Shown: piece after piece, positions 16,580 to 25,818 of the stretch
How the letters are laid out: each line of letters starts with the position of its first letter
How positions within the stretch are numbered: the first letter of the stretch is position 1
Source: Halorussus halophilus
GTDB lineage: Archaea; Halobacteriota; Halobacteria; Halobacteriales; Haladaptataceae
NCBI RefSeq assembly: GCF_008831545.1
Contig: NZ_CP044523.1
Span: 1,116,001-1,180,000 of the forward strand
Direction of reading: 5' to 3'
DNA: 64,000 nt
The notes under the pieces: model-generated
What the model saw: the letters and a program-made list of their open reading frames with translations, nothing else
What the model was told of the DNA's origin: nothing
Databases searched by the model: none
Translations under genes and position numbers: made by a program

Positions 16580-17863
16580 GTGGATGATTTTCCGACTGTC
16601 GCAGAGACGGAGCAGTGGATGGGGCTGAGAGACCGCACACGGTCGCTGGTCGGAACGCTGTCGTTTCTGGCTCAGTGGCTCTGCTATCGTCTCGTCGAGC
16701 GACTGCAGTTCTGGGAGCGCGACGACTCGTTGTGGGTGTTCGGCGCGCGCGGCGGCGAGGCGTTCGCAGACAACGCGAAGTACCTCTACCTGCACGTGGC
16801 TGCCCAACACGCCGATATACGGCCTGTCTGGCTCTCGAAGAACCGTGAGGTCGTCCGAGAGCTTCAGGAGGAAGGCTACGAGGCGTACTACTGCTACTCG
16901 CCCAGCGGACTCCTCCTCAATTTGCGCGCTGGCGTCGTCTTCCTCACGCAGGGCCACCGAGACCTCACGATGCCCTGCTGTGCGGGCGCACTGACCGTCC
17001 TGCTCTGGCACGGCGTTCCCCTCAAGAAAATCTCTTGGGACGCAGGATTCGCCGAGGAACCAACAGTCGTCCAAAGAGCCCACGCCGACATGGCCGCGGA
17101 GTTCGACGTGCTCACGGTCCCTGGCGGGGCATCGACCCGCGTCTTCGAGTCGGGTCTTCGAATCGACCGCGAGCGAATGGTCGCGACTGGCTATCCGAGA
17201 AACGACGCCCTGTTCGACTCGATTCCGGGCGAAGCGGTCGGCACCGACACCGACTCGTTGGCGAACGTCGAGCGCCTTTCGGCGGACCACCCCGTCCTGT
17301 TCTACCTGCCGACGTTCCGAGAGTGGGACGGCGGGTCGGTCGCCGCACAACTCGACTTCGCGGCGCTCGACGACCTTCTCGAACGCCGCGACGCGTATCT
17401 CGTGCTGAAGATGCATCCCCGTGAGCCGCTTCCCGTAGACGCGGCCGACTTCTCGCGCGTCGTCGTCCTCCCCGAACACACCGACGTCTATCCGTTTCTC
17501 CGGCACGCAGACGCGCTCGTGACCGACTACTCCTCCGTCGCGCTCGACTACCTCCTCCTCGACCGGCCGCTCGTCTTCTATCCGTTCGACCTCGACCGCT
17601 ACCGCGAGAAGCGCGGCCTCTACTTCGACTACGACGAGGTGACGCCGGGACCGGTCGCCCGAAACTTCGAGGACCTTCTCGTGGCGCTCGACGGTGCGTT
17701 GTCCGACCTCGACGCTCCCGGCGAGTTCGCCAGCGAGCGCCGTGCAGTGCGCGAGCGGTTACTGGACGACGATAGTCCCGGACTCGATGACGAGCGTTCA
17801 GCAACTGGCCGGTCGGCCGCCGTCTACGACTTGGTCCAACGCCACCTCTCGAACGCTCGATAG
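16580..17863 (+). CDS. CDP-glycerol glycerophosphotransferase family protein (TagB/TagF-like)
   Basis: A protein of about 427 residues of the CDP-glycerol:poly(glycerophosphate) glycerophosphotransferase family (PF04464). In Gram-positive bacteria this family builds wall teichoic acid from CDP-glycerol or CDP-ribitol. Hallmarks seen: WHGVPLKK (the catalytic His loop), GYPRNDALF, YLPTFRE, LKMHPRE, and the family signature TDYSSVALDYLLLDRP followed by FYPFDLDRYREKRGLYFDYDE and PGPV. The N-terminal ~45 residues are partly hydrophobic, fitting membrane association. The start is uncertain: GTG at 16580 or 16571, or ATG at 16619. It opens a same-strand group with a GDPD, a cytidylyltransferase-HAD fusion and a TIM barrel. 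Confidence 0.88.
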   Translation: MDDFPTVAETEQWMGLRDRTRSLVGTLSFLAQWLCYRLVERLQFWERDDSLWVFGARGGEAFADNAKYLYLHVAAQHADIRPVWLSKNREVVRELQEEGYEAYYCYSPSGLLLNLRAGVVFLTQGHRDLTMPCCAGALTVLLWHGVPLKKISWDAGFAEEPTVVQRAHADMAAEFDVLTVPGGASTRVFESGLRIDRERMVATGYPRNDALFDSIPGEAVGTDTDSLANVERLSADHPVLFYLPTFREWDGGSVAAQLDFAALDDLLERRDAYLVLKMHPREPLPVDAADFSRVVVLPEHTDVYPFLRHADALVTDYSSVALDYLLLDRPLVFYPFDLDRYREKRGLYFDYDEVTPGPVARNFEDLLVALDGALSDLDAPGEFASERRAVRERLLDDDSPGLDDERSATGRSAAVYDLVQRHLSNAR

Positions 17864-17892
17864 ACAACCTATCTCTCCGGTTCGCTCCCCTC

Positions 17893-17901
17893 ACTATTTA
17901 T
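17893..17901 (+). promoter_or_regulatory. possible TATA box upstream of the GDPD gene
   Basis: ACTATTTAT in a short AT-rich pocket 108-116 bases before the GDPD ATG at 18009. If used, the mRNA would have a leader of ~80 nt, long for a haloarchaeon. Confidence 0.35.
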
Positions 17902-18008
17902 TTCCAGAGGGAAACATTGAAGTCGAGGTTATTCTAAGGACGTTCAAAGGGTGGCAACGTCGCTCTTGGTCCCCCATCGGGTCGCCGAGGCGTCGTACTC
18001 ACGAAGAC

Positions 18009-18896
18009 ATGGCTGATACGACAGGAACCACGACAACGGACGTAGCGGGCCGAAACGAACTCTCCATCATCGCTCACCGCGGTTTCGCGGGGGTCTACCC
18101 CGAGAACACGCTCGCGGCCGTCGAGCAAGCGACTACTGGGGCGAGACAAGCAGACCTCCCCGAGATGGTCGAAGTGGACGTGATGGCGAGCGCCGACGGC
18201 GAAATCGTCGTCTTCCACGACACTGACCTCGCTCGCGTGACGAACGCGCCTGCCGACCTCGCCGAGCAGAAAGTCTGGGAGACGCCGTTCGAGACCCTGT
18301 CGGAACTGGAAGTGCTGGGCACTGGCGAGACGGTGCCGACGCTCGAAGCCGTCCTCGACGCGATTCCGCCCGAAGTCGGTCTGAACGTCGAGTTCAAGAA
18401 CCCTGGTTCGGCGGCGGTTCGACCTCGGAAAAATCTTCCACGTGAAGTGCGCGAGACGCAGAAAGAACTGTGGCTCGACTTTGCGGCCGAGGTATCCGAG
18501 ACGCTCGCCGACTACGACCACGAAATCCTCGTCTCGTCGTTCGCCGAGGGCGCGCTGGCGGCGGTCAGAGAGGTCGCCCCCGAAATCCCCCTCGCGGCCG
18601 TCTTCGCCACGTCCATCACCGACGGGATGGAAATCGCCCGCCGGTACGACTGCGAAGCGGTCCACCCGCCGTGGAACATGATTTCGGGGACGCCGCTGTT
18701 CAACAGCGAGTACGGGACGCTCGGTCCCTACGAGGACATCGACCTCGTGGACATCGCCCACAGCGAGGGCCGGGCCGTCAACGCGTGGACCGTCGAGAGT
18801 TGGTATCAGGCGACGCATCTCCGGCAGGCAGGCGTAGACGGACTCATCACGGACTACCCCGGCGTGGTTCGGTTCGGTGACGCCACTGCCGAGTGA
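18009..18896 (+). CDS. glycerophosphodiester phosphodiesterase
   Basis: A 295-residue TIM-barrel enzyme of the GDPD family, which hydrolyses glycerophosphodiesters to glycerol phosphate plus alcohol. Seen: AHRGFAGVYPENT (catalytic His and Arg, residues ~22-34), EVDVMASADGEIVVFHD (metal-binding Glu/Asp and second catalytic His, ~55-73), VEFKNPG (Glu and Lys, ~123-129), and WTVES near 262. An insertion at ~130-150 (RPRKNLPREVRETQ) is unusual. No signal peptide is present, so it acts in the cytoplasm. It lies 145 bp after the TagF-like gene, suggesting turnover or precursor supply for a glycerophosphate polymer or for lipid head groups. Confidence 0.93.
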   Translation: MADTTGTTTTDVAGRNELSIIAHRGFAGVYPENTLAAVEQATTGARQADLPEMVEVDVMASADGEIVVFHDTDLARVTNAPADLAEQKVWETPFETLSELEVLGTGETVPTLEAVLDAIPPEVGLNVEFKNPGSAAVRPRKNLPREVRETQKELWLDFAAEVSETLADYDHEILVSSFAEGALAAVREVAPEIPLAAVFATSITDGMEIARRYDCEAVHPPWNMISGTPLFNSEYGTLGPYEDIDLVDIAHSEGRAVNAWTVESWYQATHLRQAGVDGLITDYPGVVRFGDATAE

Positions 18897-18914
18897 GTCG
18901 GGGTCGCCGATTCC

Positions 18915-18926
18915 TATCTAAATAAA
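18915..18926 (+). promoter_or_regulatory. possible TATA box upstream of the cytidylyltransferase-HAD gene
   Basis: TATCTAAATAAA, about 105-116 bases before the ATG at 19031. It predicts a long leader of ~80 nt, like the arrangement at the GDPD gene. Confidence 0.4.
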
Positions 18927-19030
18927 ACAGTTCGTTTCCGACTTTTCGCCGTTCAATCTACGCATCAGACGAATACAGAGTGGCCGGTATCGTTAACCGT
19001 GACTACGTCGCGGTATGGTGCGGTGATACA

Positions 19031-20632
19031 ATGAGGGGGATAATTTTAGCGGCTGGTATCGGGTCTCGACTGCGGCCGGTGACACTCTCCAAACCGAAAT
19101 GCTGTGTCACTGTCGGCGACGCACCGATTCTGACTCGGCAACTCCGAGCGTACGCCGACGCAGGCGTCACGGACGTGACCGTCGTCGCCGGGTATCTGGC
19201 CGACGACGTGCGAACGCTCTGCGAAGAAGTTGCCCGAAAACGTCCTGAACTCGACGTATCTATCGAAGAAAGCGAGGTGTACGCTAACACCGACAACATG
19301 TACTCGCTCTACCTCGCTCGCGAGGCCGTCGCGGGCGAACCGTTCGTCCTCAGTAACGGCGACGCCGTCTTCGACTCGGAACTGCTCGCGGACCTCGTGG
19401 ACGCCGACGCGAAGAGCGCCGTGGCGGCCGACCCGGCCACCTACTCCGACGAAGCGATGAAAGTCACCGTGGACGACGCCGGACGCGTCTCACACATCGC
19501 CAAGGACGTTCCCGAGAACGTCGCGCACGCCATCTCGAACGACGTGTACCGTTTCTCTGCGGACTTCTCTGCGAGCCTCTTCGAGGAGATTACGCGAACC
19601 GTCGAACAGGAGGGCGACTACTGTGGGTGGACAGAGGCCGCTATCGACCGAATCGTCCGGAACCAACCTCACGACCTCGAACCGGTGGACGTGAGCGACC
19701 ACCGCTGGGTGGAAATCGACGACTTCGCGGACCTCGAACGGGCAGACCTCCGCTTCTCGCAACTCTCGGATATCACCGAGAAAGAGGCCGTCTTCTTCGA
19801 CCTCGACGGCACCGTGTATCTGGACGACGAACTCGTAGACGACGCAAAGACTGTTATCGACCACCTTCGTGCCGCGGGCGTCGATGTGTACTTCCTGACG
19901 AACAACTCCTCGCGCTGGAAAGACGACTATACAGCGAGACTCGCGAATTTGGGTATCGCTGCAGACACCGAACAAGTACTGCTCTCGACGGACGGCGTCA
20001 TCGATTATCTAGAGCACGTGGACGACGAGGTGTACGTCCTCGGCACTGAGCGAATGCGTGCGGCCCTCGCCGACAACGGTGTCGAACTCGGCGATGAAGA
20101 CCCGGCCGCCGTCGTCGTCGGCTTCGACACGGAACTCACCTACGAGAAAGCCCGGACTGCCACGTTGGCGATTCGGAACGGCGCGACCTTCCTACTGGCG
20201 CATCCCGACGCGGTCTGTCCCACTGCGGAGGGCTTCGTCCCGGACTGTGGCTCCATTGGCGCGATGATAGAGCGCGCTACCGACCAACAGCCAGCGCGCG
20301 TCTTCGGGAAGCCCAACCCCGAGATGCTAACGCACGTCCTCGAATCTGAGGGCTACGACCCCGAGGACGTGCTAGTCGTCGGCGACAGGTTAGAGACGGA
20401 CGTACAACTCGCCGAGAACGTTGGCTGTGACTCCGTCTGTGTCCTCTCGGGCGATTCGACCCGACTGGAAGTCGAGCAGAGCGACCTCCACCCGTCGCTG
20501 GTCGCCCCTGACGTGAGCGTACTGACTCGACTCTTACCGGACACCGACGCCAAGGAGGCAGGAATCGACCGGGACACGGTAGACCCGGACGCCGTGGAGG
20601 CGGTTCCGGCAGGCGACCGGAGTGAAGAGTAG
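19031..20632 (+). CDS. LicC-like nucleotidyltransferase fused to NagD-type HAD phosphatase
   Basis: A 533-residue two-domain enzyme. Residues 1-240 are a nucleotidyltransferase of the phosphocholine/polyol-phosphate cytidylyltransferase type: LAAGIGSRLRP (6-16), KPK (21-23), NTDNMYSLYLA (86-96), SNGDAVFD (108-115, metal site) and GWTEAAID. Residues 250-505 are a HAD hydrolase of the NagD/p-nitrophenylphosphatase class: nucleophile D257 and acid D259 in FFDLDGTVY, TNNSS (290-294), K427 in GKPNPEML and GDRLETD (451-457). All catalytic residues of both parts are kept. Probable role: making a CDP-activated polyol or alcohol for the TagF-like transferase, with phosphatase removal of a precursor phosphate. 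The stop shares one base with the next GTG start. Confidence 0.88.
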   Translation: MRGIILAAGIGSRLRPVTLSKPKCCVTVGDAPILTRQLRAYADAGVTDVTVVAGYLADDVRTLCEEVARKRPELDVSIEESEVYANTDNMYSLYLAREAVAGEPFVLSNGDAVFDSELLADLVDADAKSAVAADPATYSDEAMKVTVDDAGRVSHIAKDVPENVAHAISNDVYRFSADFSASLFEEITRTVEQEGDYCGWTEAAIDRIVRNQPHDLEPVDVSDHRWVEIDDFADLERADLRFSQLSDITEKEAVFFDLDGTVYLDDELVDDAKTVIDHLRAAGVDVYFLTNNSSRWKDDYTARLANLGIAADTEQVLLSTDGVIDYLEHVDDEVYVLGTERMRAALADNGVELGDEDPAAVVVGFDTELTYEKARTATLAIRNGATFLLAHPDAVCPTAEGFVPDCGSIGAMIERATDQQPARVFGKPNPEMLTHVLESEGYDPEDVLVVGDRLETDVQLAENVGCDSVCVLSGDSTRLEVEQSDLHPSLVAPDVSVLTRLLPDTDAKEAGIDRDTVDPDAVEAVPAGDRSEE

Positions 20633-21417
20633 TGCCCGACGTCCGGACGGGCTACGTCACACAGACCCACACCGGCGACGTGTCGTGGCGCGAGGCAGTA
20701 GACGAGGGTGCCCGTATCGGCTTCGACTTCGTGGAACTCTACATGGACGGCGCGACAGAGCGCGCGAAACTCGACGCCGAAGCGGTCGAATCGCGGGTCT
20801 CCGGCGCGAATATCGACCTGCTCGTCCACCTGCCGTTCGCGGACCTCGAAATCGGGTCGCCTCGGGAACTGGTTCGAGAGGGGTCGCTGGACGAACTGCG
20901 CGCCTGCATCGAGACGGCGGCGGAGATGGGCGCAGAGAAGGCAGTCCTCCACGCTAGTTCGCACGCCACGCCGCCGGAGTGGCACGTCGAAGATATCGCG
21001 CCACTCCTGCTGAAGTCGGTGCGCCAGTTGGACGCGTTCGCGGAAGAACGTGGCGTCGAAATCTGCGTCGAGAACCTCCCGGGCGTGCTGTTCACGATTC
21101 ACGACATGGAGCGAGTGTTCGCGGAGACGTCGGCCTCGATGACCCTCGACACAGGTCACGCGCGAGTCGATGGCGTGGACGCCGAAGGCATCGCGGAGTT
21201 CCTCGACAGCCACGGCGAGCGAGTGAGCCACGTCCACGTCAACGATTCGCGGCAGGCGGCGGACGAACACGTACCGACTGGGTCTGGCAATCTGGACTTC
21301 GAGACCGCGCTCGCGCCGCTTCGGGAGGGGTGGAAAGGGACCGTCTCGATAGAGGTCTACACTTTCGACTTCGACTACGTGGCACTGAGCAAGGAGAAAC
21401 TGGATACGTATCTGTAG
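20632..21417 (+). CDS. sugar phosphate isomerase/epimerase-like TIM barrel
   Basis: A 261-residue protein of the xylose isomerase-like TIM barrel superfamily (AP endonuclease 2 fold). Metal-binding strands are visible: FVELYMDG, VHLPF, VLHASSH, EICVENLP (Glu), LDTGHA (Asp-His), HVHVNDS and a final VSIEVY (Glu). Such proteins isomerise or epimerise keto sugars and inosose derivatives. It starts at GTG 20632, overlapping the last base of the previous gene, so it is cotranslated with the cytidylyltransferase-HAD enzyme and probably supplies or modifies its polyol or sugar substrate. Confidence 0.87.
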   Translation: MPDVRTGYVTQTHTGDVSWREAVDEGARIGFDFVELYMDGATERAKLDAEAVESRVSGANIDLLVHLPFADLEIGSPRELVREGSLDELRACIETAAEMGAEKAVLHASSHATPPEWHVEDIAPLLLKSVRQLDAFAEERGVEICVENLPGVLFTIHDMERVFAETSASMTLDTGHARVDGVDAEGIAEFLDSHGERVSHVHVNDSRQAADEHVPTGSGNLDFETALAPLREGWKGTVSIEVYTFDFDYVALSKEKLDTYL

Positions 21418-22975: not shown

Positions 22976-24313
22976 ATGGCTCAACGAGAGACCTGGACGA
23001 GTAGAATCGGATTTATCTTCGCCGCTGTCGGGAGCGCGGTGGGACTCGGGAATATCTGGTCGTTCCCGTTCCAGACCGCCGCGAACGGCGGGGCGGCGTT
23101 CCTCGTCGTCTACCTACTGGCCGTCTTCCTCATCGGCTTCCCGACGATGATGATCGAGTTCGTCATCGGACGGCGCGGCGAACAGAATCCCGTCGCCGCA
23201 TTCGAAAAAATCGGCTACGGCAACTGGTCGTTCACCGGCGGACTCGGCGTCTTCTCCTCGCTGGTGACGCTGTCGTTCTACAGCGTCGTCGGCGGGTGGG
23301 TCCTCAGCTACATCGTCGGTAGTGCCACCGGCGCGTACTTCGGTGACCCCGGCACGTACTTCGGGTCCGTCGCGTCCGGCCCGACTGCAATCGCCGCCCA
23401 CGCCGTCTTCATGGCGATTACCATCGGCATCGTCGCCTCGGGCGTCACCGACGGTATCGAGCGCGCGACGAAGGTCATGATTCCCGCCATCCTCGTTCTA
23501 CTGGTCGGCATGGCCGCGTGGGCGACCACGCTCTCCGGTGCGTCTGCGGGGTACGAGTACTACCTTTCGCCGGACTTCGGTGTCATCGCCGACAACTTCG
23601 CGTCGATCGTCCCGCCCGCGATGGGACAGGCGTTCTTCACGCTCTCGCTCGGGTTCAGCGTCATGATCGCCTACTCGTCGTACCTCGGCCGTGACGACAG
23701 CCTCCCGGCCGACGGCGGTGCAATCGTCGTGGTCAACACCCTCGTCGCACTCCTCGCAGGGTTCGTCATCTTCCCCATCTTCTTCGCCACTGGCGGCGCT
23801 GAAGGTGCAGGAAGTGGCGGTGCAGGGACCGCGTTCGTCGCGCTCGCCGGAGCGTTCGGTAGTCTTCCGGCAGGTCAAATCATCGGGTTCGTCTTCTTCG
23901 CCGTCCTGTTGTTCGCAGCACTGTCCAGTTCGATTAGCCTGCTGGAAGTGCCGGTGTCCTACGTCACCGAGAGCTACGGTTACAGTCGAGGGACGACGGC
24001 GGTGGTGATGGGTCTCGCCATCGCGCTCCTCGGCGTGCCCGCGACGTTCGGCACGTCGTGGCTCGGTTTCTACAACGACCTCGTGTTCAACATCTTCCTC
24101 CCCATCGCGGTCCTGCTGTTCGCCGTCTTCGCTGGCTGGGTTGCCAACAGGGAGGCCGTGGACGAACTCGGTCGCGGTAGTTCCGTCGGCGAGTCGTTCA
24201 CGACGGCGTGGCTCTGGTGGATTCGAATCGTGGTTCCCATCGCCGTCATCGTGACGCTCTACCTCGGCGTCGAGTCGCTGTACACTGGTCTCACATCTGG
24301 GGCGTACTTCTAA
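22976..24313 (+). CDS. NSS family sodium-dependent transporter (paralogue 1)
   Basis: A 445-residue neurotransmitter:sodium symporter (SNF) family protein, carrying amino acids or related solutes with Na+ across the cell membrane. The unwound TM1 motif GSAVGLGNIWSFPF (residues ~19-32) and NGGAAFLVVY, the PTMMIEFVIGRR loop after TM2, and TM8-like LSSSISLLEVPVSY are present. About 11 TM helices are visible, as in prokaryotic members. A TATA-like element GTTTATGG lies ~30 bases upstream of the ATG. A paralogue follows 146 bp downstream in the same direction. Confidence 0.94.
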   Translation: MAQRETWTSRIGFIFAAVGSAVGLGNIWSFPFQTAANGGAAFLVVYLLAVFLIGFPTMMIEFVIGRRGEQNPVAAFEKIGYGNWSFTGGLGVFSSLVTLSFYSVVGGWVLSYIVGSATGAYFGDPGTYFGSVASGPTAIAAHAVFMAITIGIVASGVTDGIERATKVMIPAILVLLVGMAAWATTLSGASAGYEYYLSPDFGVIADNFASIVPPAMGQAFFTLSLGFSVMIAYSSYLGRDDSLPADGGAIVVVNTLVALLAGFVIFPIFFATGGAEGAGSGGAGTAFVALAGAFGSLPAGQIIGFVFFAVLLFAALSSSISLLEVPVSYVTESYGYSRGTTAVVMGLAIALLGVPATFGTSWLGFYNDLVFNIFLPIAVLLFAVFAGWVANREAVDELGRGSSVGESFTTAWLWWIRIVVPIAVIVTLYLGVESLYTGLTSGAYF

Positions 24314-24459
24314 CGCTCACGAATCGTAACCACTCGTTTTCTTTCGGAATGCACGCAGACTGAAGGGACCTGCGTAGTCGCGTGAAGACCGTGATTTTTC
24401 TCTCCTGACGGTTTTCAATCTCGAAACACTCTTCCGACTCGATTGGCCATTGTGTATCA

Positions 24460-25818
24460 ATGACACGTGAATCGTGGCACACCCGCCTCGGCTTCATCCT
24501 CGCGGCCGTTGGGAGCGCCGTCGGACTCGGCAACGTCTGGCGCTTTCCGTGGATGACCGCCGAGAACGGCGGGAGTGCCTTTCTGGTGGTATATCTCGCA
24601 ATCGTTCTCCTCGTCGGCGTCCCCGGCTTGCTGGCGGAGTTCGTCATCGGACGGCGTTCGAACCGTAATCCGGCTGGTGCGATGTTCAGGCTCTCCTCCG
24701 GGTCGAAGTCGTGGGGGATGGTCGGTCTGTTCGGCGTCGTGACTGCCGTCGTGCTACTGTCGTTCTACAGCGTCGTCGGCGGGTGGATTGTTCGGTACTT
24801 CCTGTCGAGTTTCATCGGGTCGTACCACGCAGCACCAGCAGCGTACTTCTCGGGTATCGACTTCGGCATCGGCGCGGCCTTCTACCACGTCGTCTTCCTT
24901 TCGCTGACCGCTTTCATCGTGGTCGGGGGCGTTCGGGACGGTATCGAGAAGGCGACGAAGGTCATGATGCCTCTGATTCTCCTCCTGCTCGGGGCGCTGG
25001 CCGTCTGGGCCACTTCCCAACCGGGCGCAGGTGCAGGGCTGGAGTTCTACCTGAACTTCGACGCCGCGTACCTCCAGAACAACTTCTTCGACGTTCTCGG
25101 AGCGGCCGCGGGCCAAGCCTTGTTCACGCTCTCGCTCGGCGTCGGGACGATGATAACCTACGCCTCGTATCTGGGCGACGACAACGACCTAGCGCTCGAC
25201 GGGAGCATCATAGCGGTGCTGAACACCGGCGTCGGCGTCCTCGCGGGACTGGTCGTCTTCCCGCTCCTCTTCGCGACGTTGGGCGAACTCTCCGGCACGG
25301 CGGCCAAGGGCGGTGCTGGTGCGCTGTTCATCAGCCTCGCGGGTGCGTTCTCACAGGTGCCGTTCGGCACGGTGCTGTCGGTGCTGTTCTTCGGCGTCAT
25401 CACGCTAGCCGCGCTCTCCTCCTCGATTAGCATGCTCGAAATTCCGGTCGCGTACCTCGTGGACGAACACGACATGGAGCGTCGAAACGCCACGCTCGGA
25501 CTCGCGGGACTGATTCTGTTCACCGGATCGGCGAACGCCCTGAATCCGGCGCTGTTCGACTTCGTCGCGAGTACGCTCGTAGACCTTATGTTGACTACCG
25601 GTCTCGTCGGTTTCCTCGTCTTCGCTGGGTGGGTCCTCGGCAAAGACGCCCTGTCGGAGTTCTCGGCAGGCGCAGGACGCTCGCGCGCCATCGGCCCAGC
25701 GTGGCTCTGGAGCATCCGAACGGTACTGCCCGTCTTCCTCGCGGGGACGCTCCTCGTGAATCTGCTCGCGCTGGCTGGCTTCTCGGTGGGCGACCTACTG
25801 GCGTTCGTCGTCCCGTAG
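24460..25818 (+). CDS. NSS family sodium-dependent transporter (paralogue 2)
   Basis: A 452-residue NSS/SNF transporter of the same build as its upstream neighbour: GSAVGLGNVWRFPWMTAENGG in TM1 (residues ~20-40), PGLLAEFVIGRRSNRNP, SFYSVVGGWIV, and LSSSISMLEIPVAYL in TM8. Differences in TM1 (NVWRFPW against NIWSFPF) suggest another substrate specificity; the NVWRFPW form is the commoner one in amino acid carriers. Its stop is followed by a hairpin and T-rich stretch at 25831-25856, a likely transcription end. Confidence 0.94.
   Translation: MTRESWHTRLGFILAAVGSAVGLGNVWRFPWMTAENGGSAFLVVYLAIVLLVGVPGLLAEFVIGRRSNRNPAGAMFRLSSGSKSWGMVGLFGVVTAVVLLSFYSVVGGWIVRYFLSSFIGSYHAAPAAYFSGIDFGIGAAFYHVVFLSLTAFIVVGGVRDGIEKATKVMMPLILLLLGALAVWATSQPGAGAGLEFYLNFDAAYLQNNFFDVLGAAAGQALFTLSLGVGTMITYASYLGDDNDLALDGSIIAVLNTGVGVLAGLVVFPLLFATLGELSGTAAKGGAGALFISLAGAFSQVPFGTVLSVLFFGVITLAALSSSISMLEIPVAYLVDEHDMERRNATLGLAGLILFTGSANALNPALFDFVASTLVDLMLTTGLVGFLVFAGWVLGKDALSEFSAGAGRSRAIGPAWLWSIRTVLPVFLAGTLLVNLLALAGFSVGDLLAFVVP

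Follow-up and report, generated by a model that had tools for sequence, protein, structure and literature searches.

Four adjacent plus-strand genes of the haloarchaeon Halorussus halophilus are considered here, in a window of 64,000 nucleotides that spans positions 1116001-1180000 of contig 1 (genome size 4.45 Mb). They are preceded by the minus-strand genes sucD, sucC and ychF. An earlier note, made from the DNA letters, had read them as genes for a TagF-like transferase, a glycerophosphodiester phosphodiesterase (GDPD), a LicC-like cytidylyltransferase fused to a HAD phosphatase, and a sugar-isomerase-like TIM barrel, which together would make a CDP-polyol and transfer polyol phosphate. All four genes are present and intact, and their families are clear by Pfam and NCBIfam (Table 1). 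The GTG start codon of the TIM-barrel gene shares one base with the stop codon of the fusion gene, and the AlphaFold model of the fusion protein has a mean pLDDT of 90.

Table 1. Window positions of the four genes, and of the two domains of the fusion.
Feature	Position	Strand	Details
TagF/TarF-like (PF04464) CDP-alditol:alditol-phosphotransferase	16580..17863	+	GTG start, 427 aa, single catalytic domain
GDPD-family glycerophosphodiester phosphodiesterase	18009..18896	+	295 aa; PF03009
Whole LicC-like/HAD fusion	19031-20632	+	533 aa; NTP_transferase/NTP_transf_3 residues 3-132, HAD-IIA 252-496
LicC/COG1213-type cytidylyltransferase domain, N-terminus of fusion	19031..19750	+	residues 1-240 (about, by structure)
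HAD-IIA (NagD/PGP-type) phosphatase domain and short disordered tail, C-terminus of fusion	19751..20632	+	
AP_endonuc_2 TIM barrel	20632..21417	+	PF01261, 117 bits

The product of the first gene matches PF04464 over residues 48-375 with a score of 206.5 bits (cut-off 22.1), and its closest solved relative is the S. epidermidis TagF (3l7i, 1e-30). Its residues His144 and His279, which align with His444 and His584 of that enzyme, are invariant in all 41 archaeal TagF-like homologues, as are the arginine of the YPRND motif, Tyr317 and Ser318. The PF04464 score and the conservation of both catalytic histidines support the description of this protein as TagF-like with the signatures of the family. 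It shares with the TagB, TagF and TarF proteins of bacterial teichoic acid synthesis the PF04464 domain, both histidines, and the R-N-D, TDYSS and PGP motifs, but differs from them in its single-domain form and in falling below the NCBIfam equivalogs TarF, TarB and TarL (119, 45 and 72 bits versus cut-offs of 550, 500 and 1000, respectively). Haloarchaeal TagF-like proteins have 362-459 residues, the size of TarF or TagB and not that of the two-part polymerase TagF, and because of this size we consider a few additions as likely as the synthesis of a long polymer. A further difference from the bacterial systems is that the genome has no match to PF03808 (TagA/WecG), while its best match to TIGR01518 (TagD/TarD) scores 33 bits versus 165. 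In the absence of TagD, a CDP-alditol would evidently come from the fusion protein.

A profile of the nucleotidyltransferase (NT) halves of the fusions, together with stand-alone NTs from other genomes, had cytidylyltransferases for all of its top five matches in the PDB, ahead of the sugar-nucleotide enzymes: LicC (6.6e-32), the phosphonate cytidylyltransferase PntC and three inositol-phosphate cytidylyltransferases (IPCT). In a Foldseek search with the predicted structure of the NT domain, the top two ranks went to LicC and PntC, in that order, and sugar NTs followed closely; with the whole fusion, only HAD proteins were among the matches listed. Residues R13, K23 and D111 are invariant in 20 fusions and can be matched by motif to R16, K26 and D112 of the IMPCT active site (PMC12275187). 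The fusion thus has the fold, the active-site Arg, Lys and Asp, and the N-x-YSL motif of its LicC/COG1213 relatives (IPCT, PntC and CpgD), and differs from them in being joined to a HAD-IIA domain and in having its own acceptor-pocket residues. In a tree of 69 proteins, which includes several long branches, a branch (96/89) separates the TagF-linked NTs from the other sampled NTs, although two of the latter (G129 and G285) are also near TagF-like fragments. An assignment to the sugar-nucleotide NTs, of which AglF and GlmU are examples, was rejected on the basis of the tree, the motif (N-x-YSL versus GLAHAL/GSGHA) and the PDB ranking. The domain profiles, and the fact that the closest solved relatives are CTP enzymes, bear out the assignment of a LicC-like cytidylyltransferase fused to a HAD phosphatase.

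To assess linkage we surveyed 292 Halobacteria genomes, counting a fusion homologue where both of its halves were covered and mapping neighbourhoods of 20 kb with a simple open reading frame model, so that start positions in the relatives may be off. Fusion homologues were found in 21 genomes (the window's own included) and TagF-like genes in 45, and all 21 fusion genomes were among these 45. Naive hypergeometric probabilities for this co-occurrence are 7e-20 by genome and 1e-5 by genus, but they ignore kinship and the true figure is larger. The earlier note had set a lack of co-occurrence in other genomes as the finding that would speak against a module, and the opposite was found. All four genes are clustered in 13 of the 21 fusion genomes, in two orders, with TagF-GDPD-fusion-TIM in five loci and TIM-TagF-GDPD-fusion in eight. 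Five further loci have the arrangements TIM-TagF-fusion, TagF-GDPD-fusion or TagF-fusion-GDPD. In two genomes a GDPD-fusion-TIM trio has been relocated, with TagF still beside ychF, and in one genome 27 kb separates the fusion from TagF. Overall, GDPD accompanies the fusion in 19 of the 21 loci and the TIM barrel in 16. Retention of the gene set through these rearrangements argues for a functional linkage. Two peculiarities of individual loci were also recorded. The fusion gene of G256 (L051) is interrupted by an unread codon flanked by near-identical repeats, which probably reflects an error of assembly. A protein of 524-530 aa with no Pfam match (cluster c98) is encoded beside the fusion in one genome (L050:7478-9052) and beside a TagF-like gene in another (L106:7587-9179).

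The pairing of an NT with a TagF-like protein also occurs in a different architecture. Immediately upstream of the TagF-like gene, 13 further Halobacteria genomes encode a stand-alone NT of the same clade (cluster c4, about 241 aa), and the ends of the two genes often overlap. Clear c4 orthologues are confined to these 13 genomes, none of which carries the fusion, and the next-best matches of c4 are mostly the NT halves of fusions. The loci with such pairs often hold glycosyltransferases, a sulfatase-like protein or a polysaccharide deacetylase. Sulfatase/alkaline-phosphatase-like proteins with weak or no Pfam matches (c7 and c23) recur near TagF-like genes (L083, L084, L085, L088, L092-L094, L102 and L107). 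An ABC transporter in L032 was considered as a functional clue, but is of the Liv/Urt type and uninformative.

A clue to the identity of the alcohol comes from related loci. We mapped 21 loci with a clear TagF-like gene, 20 from outside Halobacteria but within the same phylum (Halobacteriota) and one haloarchaeal (L192); L202-L206, which have weak PF04464 matches and no TagF-like protein by BLAST, were not counted. A LicC-like NT and a glycerol-3-phosphate dehydrogenase adjoin TagF in 13 of the 21 loci, representing at least three families. The dehydrogenase is of the GpsA type (PF01210/PF07479) in eight of these triads (L182, L183, L185, L186, L191 and L193-L195) and a GlpA-like FAD enzyme in five (L187, L190 and L197-L199). 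Enzymes of the GpsA type, which depend on NAD(P), produce sn-glycerol-3-phosphate, whereas archaeal lipids are built on sn-glycerol-1-phosphate, as PMC8262930 also states. The simplest reading of the triads is that the dehydrogenase is dedicated to furnishing the glycerol-3-phosphate from which CDP-glycerol is made. They are comparable to the wchX-gtp1-gtp2-gtp3 cassette of S. pneumoniae 23F, which as annotated in PMC3493582 combines a glycerol phosphotransferase and an NT with a dehydrogenase, like the methanogen triads; that cassette, however, belongs to a bacterial capsule locus and has no GDPD or TIM barrel listed. Because the dehydrogenase is the third gene in these relatives, we favor CDP-glycerol as the product of the NT, and glycerol is likely to be the alcohol of the window's fusion as well.

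The GDPD scores 119.4 bits against PF03009 (cut-off 23.6) and its catalytic His/Arg/Glu/Asp/His/Glu/Lys residues are invariant in all 19 proteins compared; it has no signal peptide evident by eye and may be cytoplasmic. The HAD-IIA domain of the fusion reaches 141.3 bits with TIGR01460 (cut-off 100.15) and matches 1vjr (1e-46), its DxDGT and NNSS motifs, K427 and D452 are invariant in 20 of 20 fusions, and phosphatases of glycerol phosphate and phosphoglycolate are among the members of its subfamily. The TIM barrel can be aligned to MJ1311 (2e-20) and to endonuclease IV 5zhz. All nine of its ligand positions (H66, H107, E147, D173, H176, H202, D211, H213 and E241) are of the endonuclease IV type in 35 of 35 homologues, orthologues and paralogues together, with E241 lying outside the pairwise alignment to endonuclease IV; the epimerase UlaE is without the Asp-x-His pair. 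The nearest NCBIfam model is CbiR (NF041277), a cobamide phosphodiesterase of the AP_endonuc_2 superfamily (PMC7733943). The window's protein shares the barrel and the conserved metal ligands with CbiR and endonuclease IV, but at 80.7 bits it is under the CbiR cut-off of 105. Since the nine ligands are conserved, a phosphoesterase appears likelier than a sugar isomerase, and the description as sugar-isomerase-like holds for the fold and not for the activity. An isomerase is weakened yet kept as a reading because paralogues of the TIM barrel (L131-L149), which keep the nine ligands, adjoin a PfkB-like kinase (identified by eye) in about eight of 19 loci.

Based on these findings we propose, with a probability of roughly 0.6, that the four-gene module uses CTP to convert an alditol phosphate into a CDP-alditol, from which the alditol-phosphate group is then passed to a lipid, a glycan or a polymer. 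The proposal is founded on the identities of the genes and their catalytic residues, on their linkage and co-occurrence, and on the glycerol-3-phosphate dehydrogenases of the relatives. In a first step, the LicC-type domain of the fusion would join CTP to a small alcohol phosphate, most likely glycerol phosphate, to give a CDP-alditol. In a second, the TagF-like enzyme would pass the alditol phosphate from CDP to a hydroxyl of the acceptor at the inner face of the membrane. By hydrolyzing phosphodiesters, the GDPD and the TIM barrel of endonuclease IV type may provide alditol phosphate or recycle it, and the HAD-IIA half of the fusion could remove alditol phosphate that is unwanted or in surplus. 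These reactions, the choice of glycerol, the roles of the GDPD, HAD and TIM enzymes, and the nature of the acceptor are what we infer from the genes. The module would parallel the activation and transfer steps of teichoic acid synthesis, but it falls outside the classical pathway as defined. The idea of a CDP-polyol and a transferred polyol phosphate is favored by the conserved NT/TagF pairing and by the dehydrogenase of the relatives, whereas the classical teichoic acid route fails on the absence of TagA and TagD. The module is best described as a putative system for polyol-phosphate transfer to the envelope or to lipids.

Several observations weigh against this proposal. There is no linked glycosyltransferase or exporter within the window. 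The GDPD and the TIM barrel have many paralogues outside the cluster and belong to families common in Halobacteria. No glycerol-3-phosphate dehydrogenase was present in any of the haloarchaeal loci examined; the window's genome has adjacent genes for a glycerol kinase and GlpA, however, so sn-glycerol-3-phosphate should be made and a locus-borne dehydrogenase would be unneeded in haloarchaea. Lastly, the GE(Y/F)IG and W-Y pocket pattern is common to the stand-alone NTs and most of the GpsA-linked NTs, while the fusion pocket, with its invariant S169 and D171 plus WTE, differs from those of the glycerol-linked NTs, and its alcohol may therefore not be glycerol-3-phosphate.

This last point bears on the foremost alternative, that the mechanism is the same but the alcohol is another: a different polyol phosphate, glycerate, the opposite glycerol-phosphate enantiomer or an amino-alcohol phosphate. 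Consistent with it are the broad substrate range of COG1213, for which choline, inositol, phosphoglutamine and phosphoglycerate are known (PMC12275187), and the PfkB-like kinases beside the TIM paralogues, which suggest sugar chemistry. Furthermore, in L189 (5595-7448; G488) a LicC-like NT is fused to a CobD/HisC-like aminotransferase, and the fused gene directly adjoins one for a TagF-like protein. This cassette may be a variant for a CDP-amino-alcohol, and it indicates that the NT family can serve other alcohols. We nevertheless regard a non-glycerol alcohol as somewhat unlikely, as the adjacency of the GDPD and the dehydrogenases of the relatives favor glycerol.

We consider it quite improbable that the module makes an osmolyte, namely a soluble phosphodiester comparable to diglycerol phosphate or glycerophosphoinositol, and not an envelope component. 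To our knowledge the known osmolyte routes employ CDP-alcohol phosphotransferase membrane enzymes and not TagF-like proteins, and the stand-alone NT-TagF pairs are often near glycosyltransferases and a polysaccharide deacetylase. The cytoplasmic-looking phosphodiesterases of the set could degrade such a solute, and the glycerophosphoinositol route of Archaeoglobus is likewise an archaeal use of CDP-glycerol, although, as far as the citation in PMC8262930 and general knowledge indicate, it has a transferase of another family and a soluble product. Least probable by our estimate is that a glycerophosphodiester salvage set stands by chance beside an unrelated transferase: GDPD and TIM families are indeed common, but co-occurrence in 21 of 21 genomes, clusters in several families and two orders, and NT-TagF pairing in two further architectures essentially refute a chance association of NT and TagF, the roles of TIM and HAD apart.

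Downstream of the module, the window contains two neighboring SNF-type sodium symporter genes (22976-25818) that are conserved with a SDR gene in Halorussus and Haladaptatus. The SDR and SNF genes were considered as members of the module and excluded, as they show only local synteny within the same family.

Searches of the open literature turned up no description of a CDP-glycerol or TagF-like pathway in haloarchaea, in agreement with the claim that such a pathway is undescribed there, although this is weak evidence since subscription papers mostly lie outside it. A TagF-like gene of Methanobrevibacter ruminantium has been placed under teichoic acid biosynthesis by annotation only. Polyol-phosphate decoration is familiar above all from bacterial capsules and from the walls of Gram-positive bacteria. 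If polyol-phosphate transfer by this module is correct, archaea with ether lipids and an S-layer would also decorate an envelope component or lipid in this way. More broadly, and only tentatively, we suggest that Halobacteriota may have a teichoic-acid-like pathway of their own that yields a polyol-phosphate glycan or lipid, based on a CDP-glycerol synthase of the LicC type and not the TagD type; in several haloarchaeal lineages this synthase would be fused to a phosphatase and accompanied by two dedicated turnover phosphodiesterases, giving a surface component new to haloarchaea. Such a pathway would also provide a specific role for the bacterial-type glycerol-3-phosphate dehydrogenases of methanogens, whose lipids use the opposite enantiomer, and a function for archaeal TagF-like genes that have so far been annotated by homology alone.

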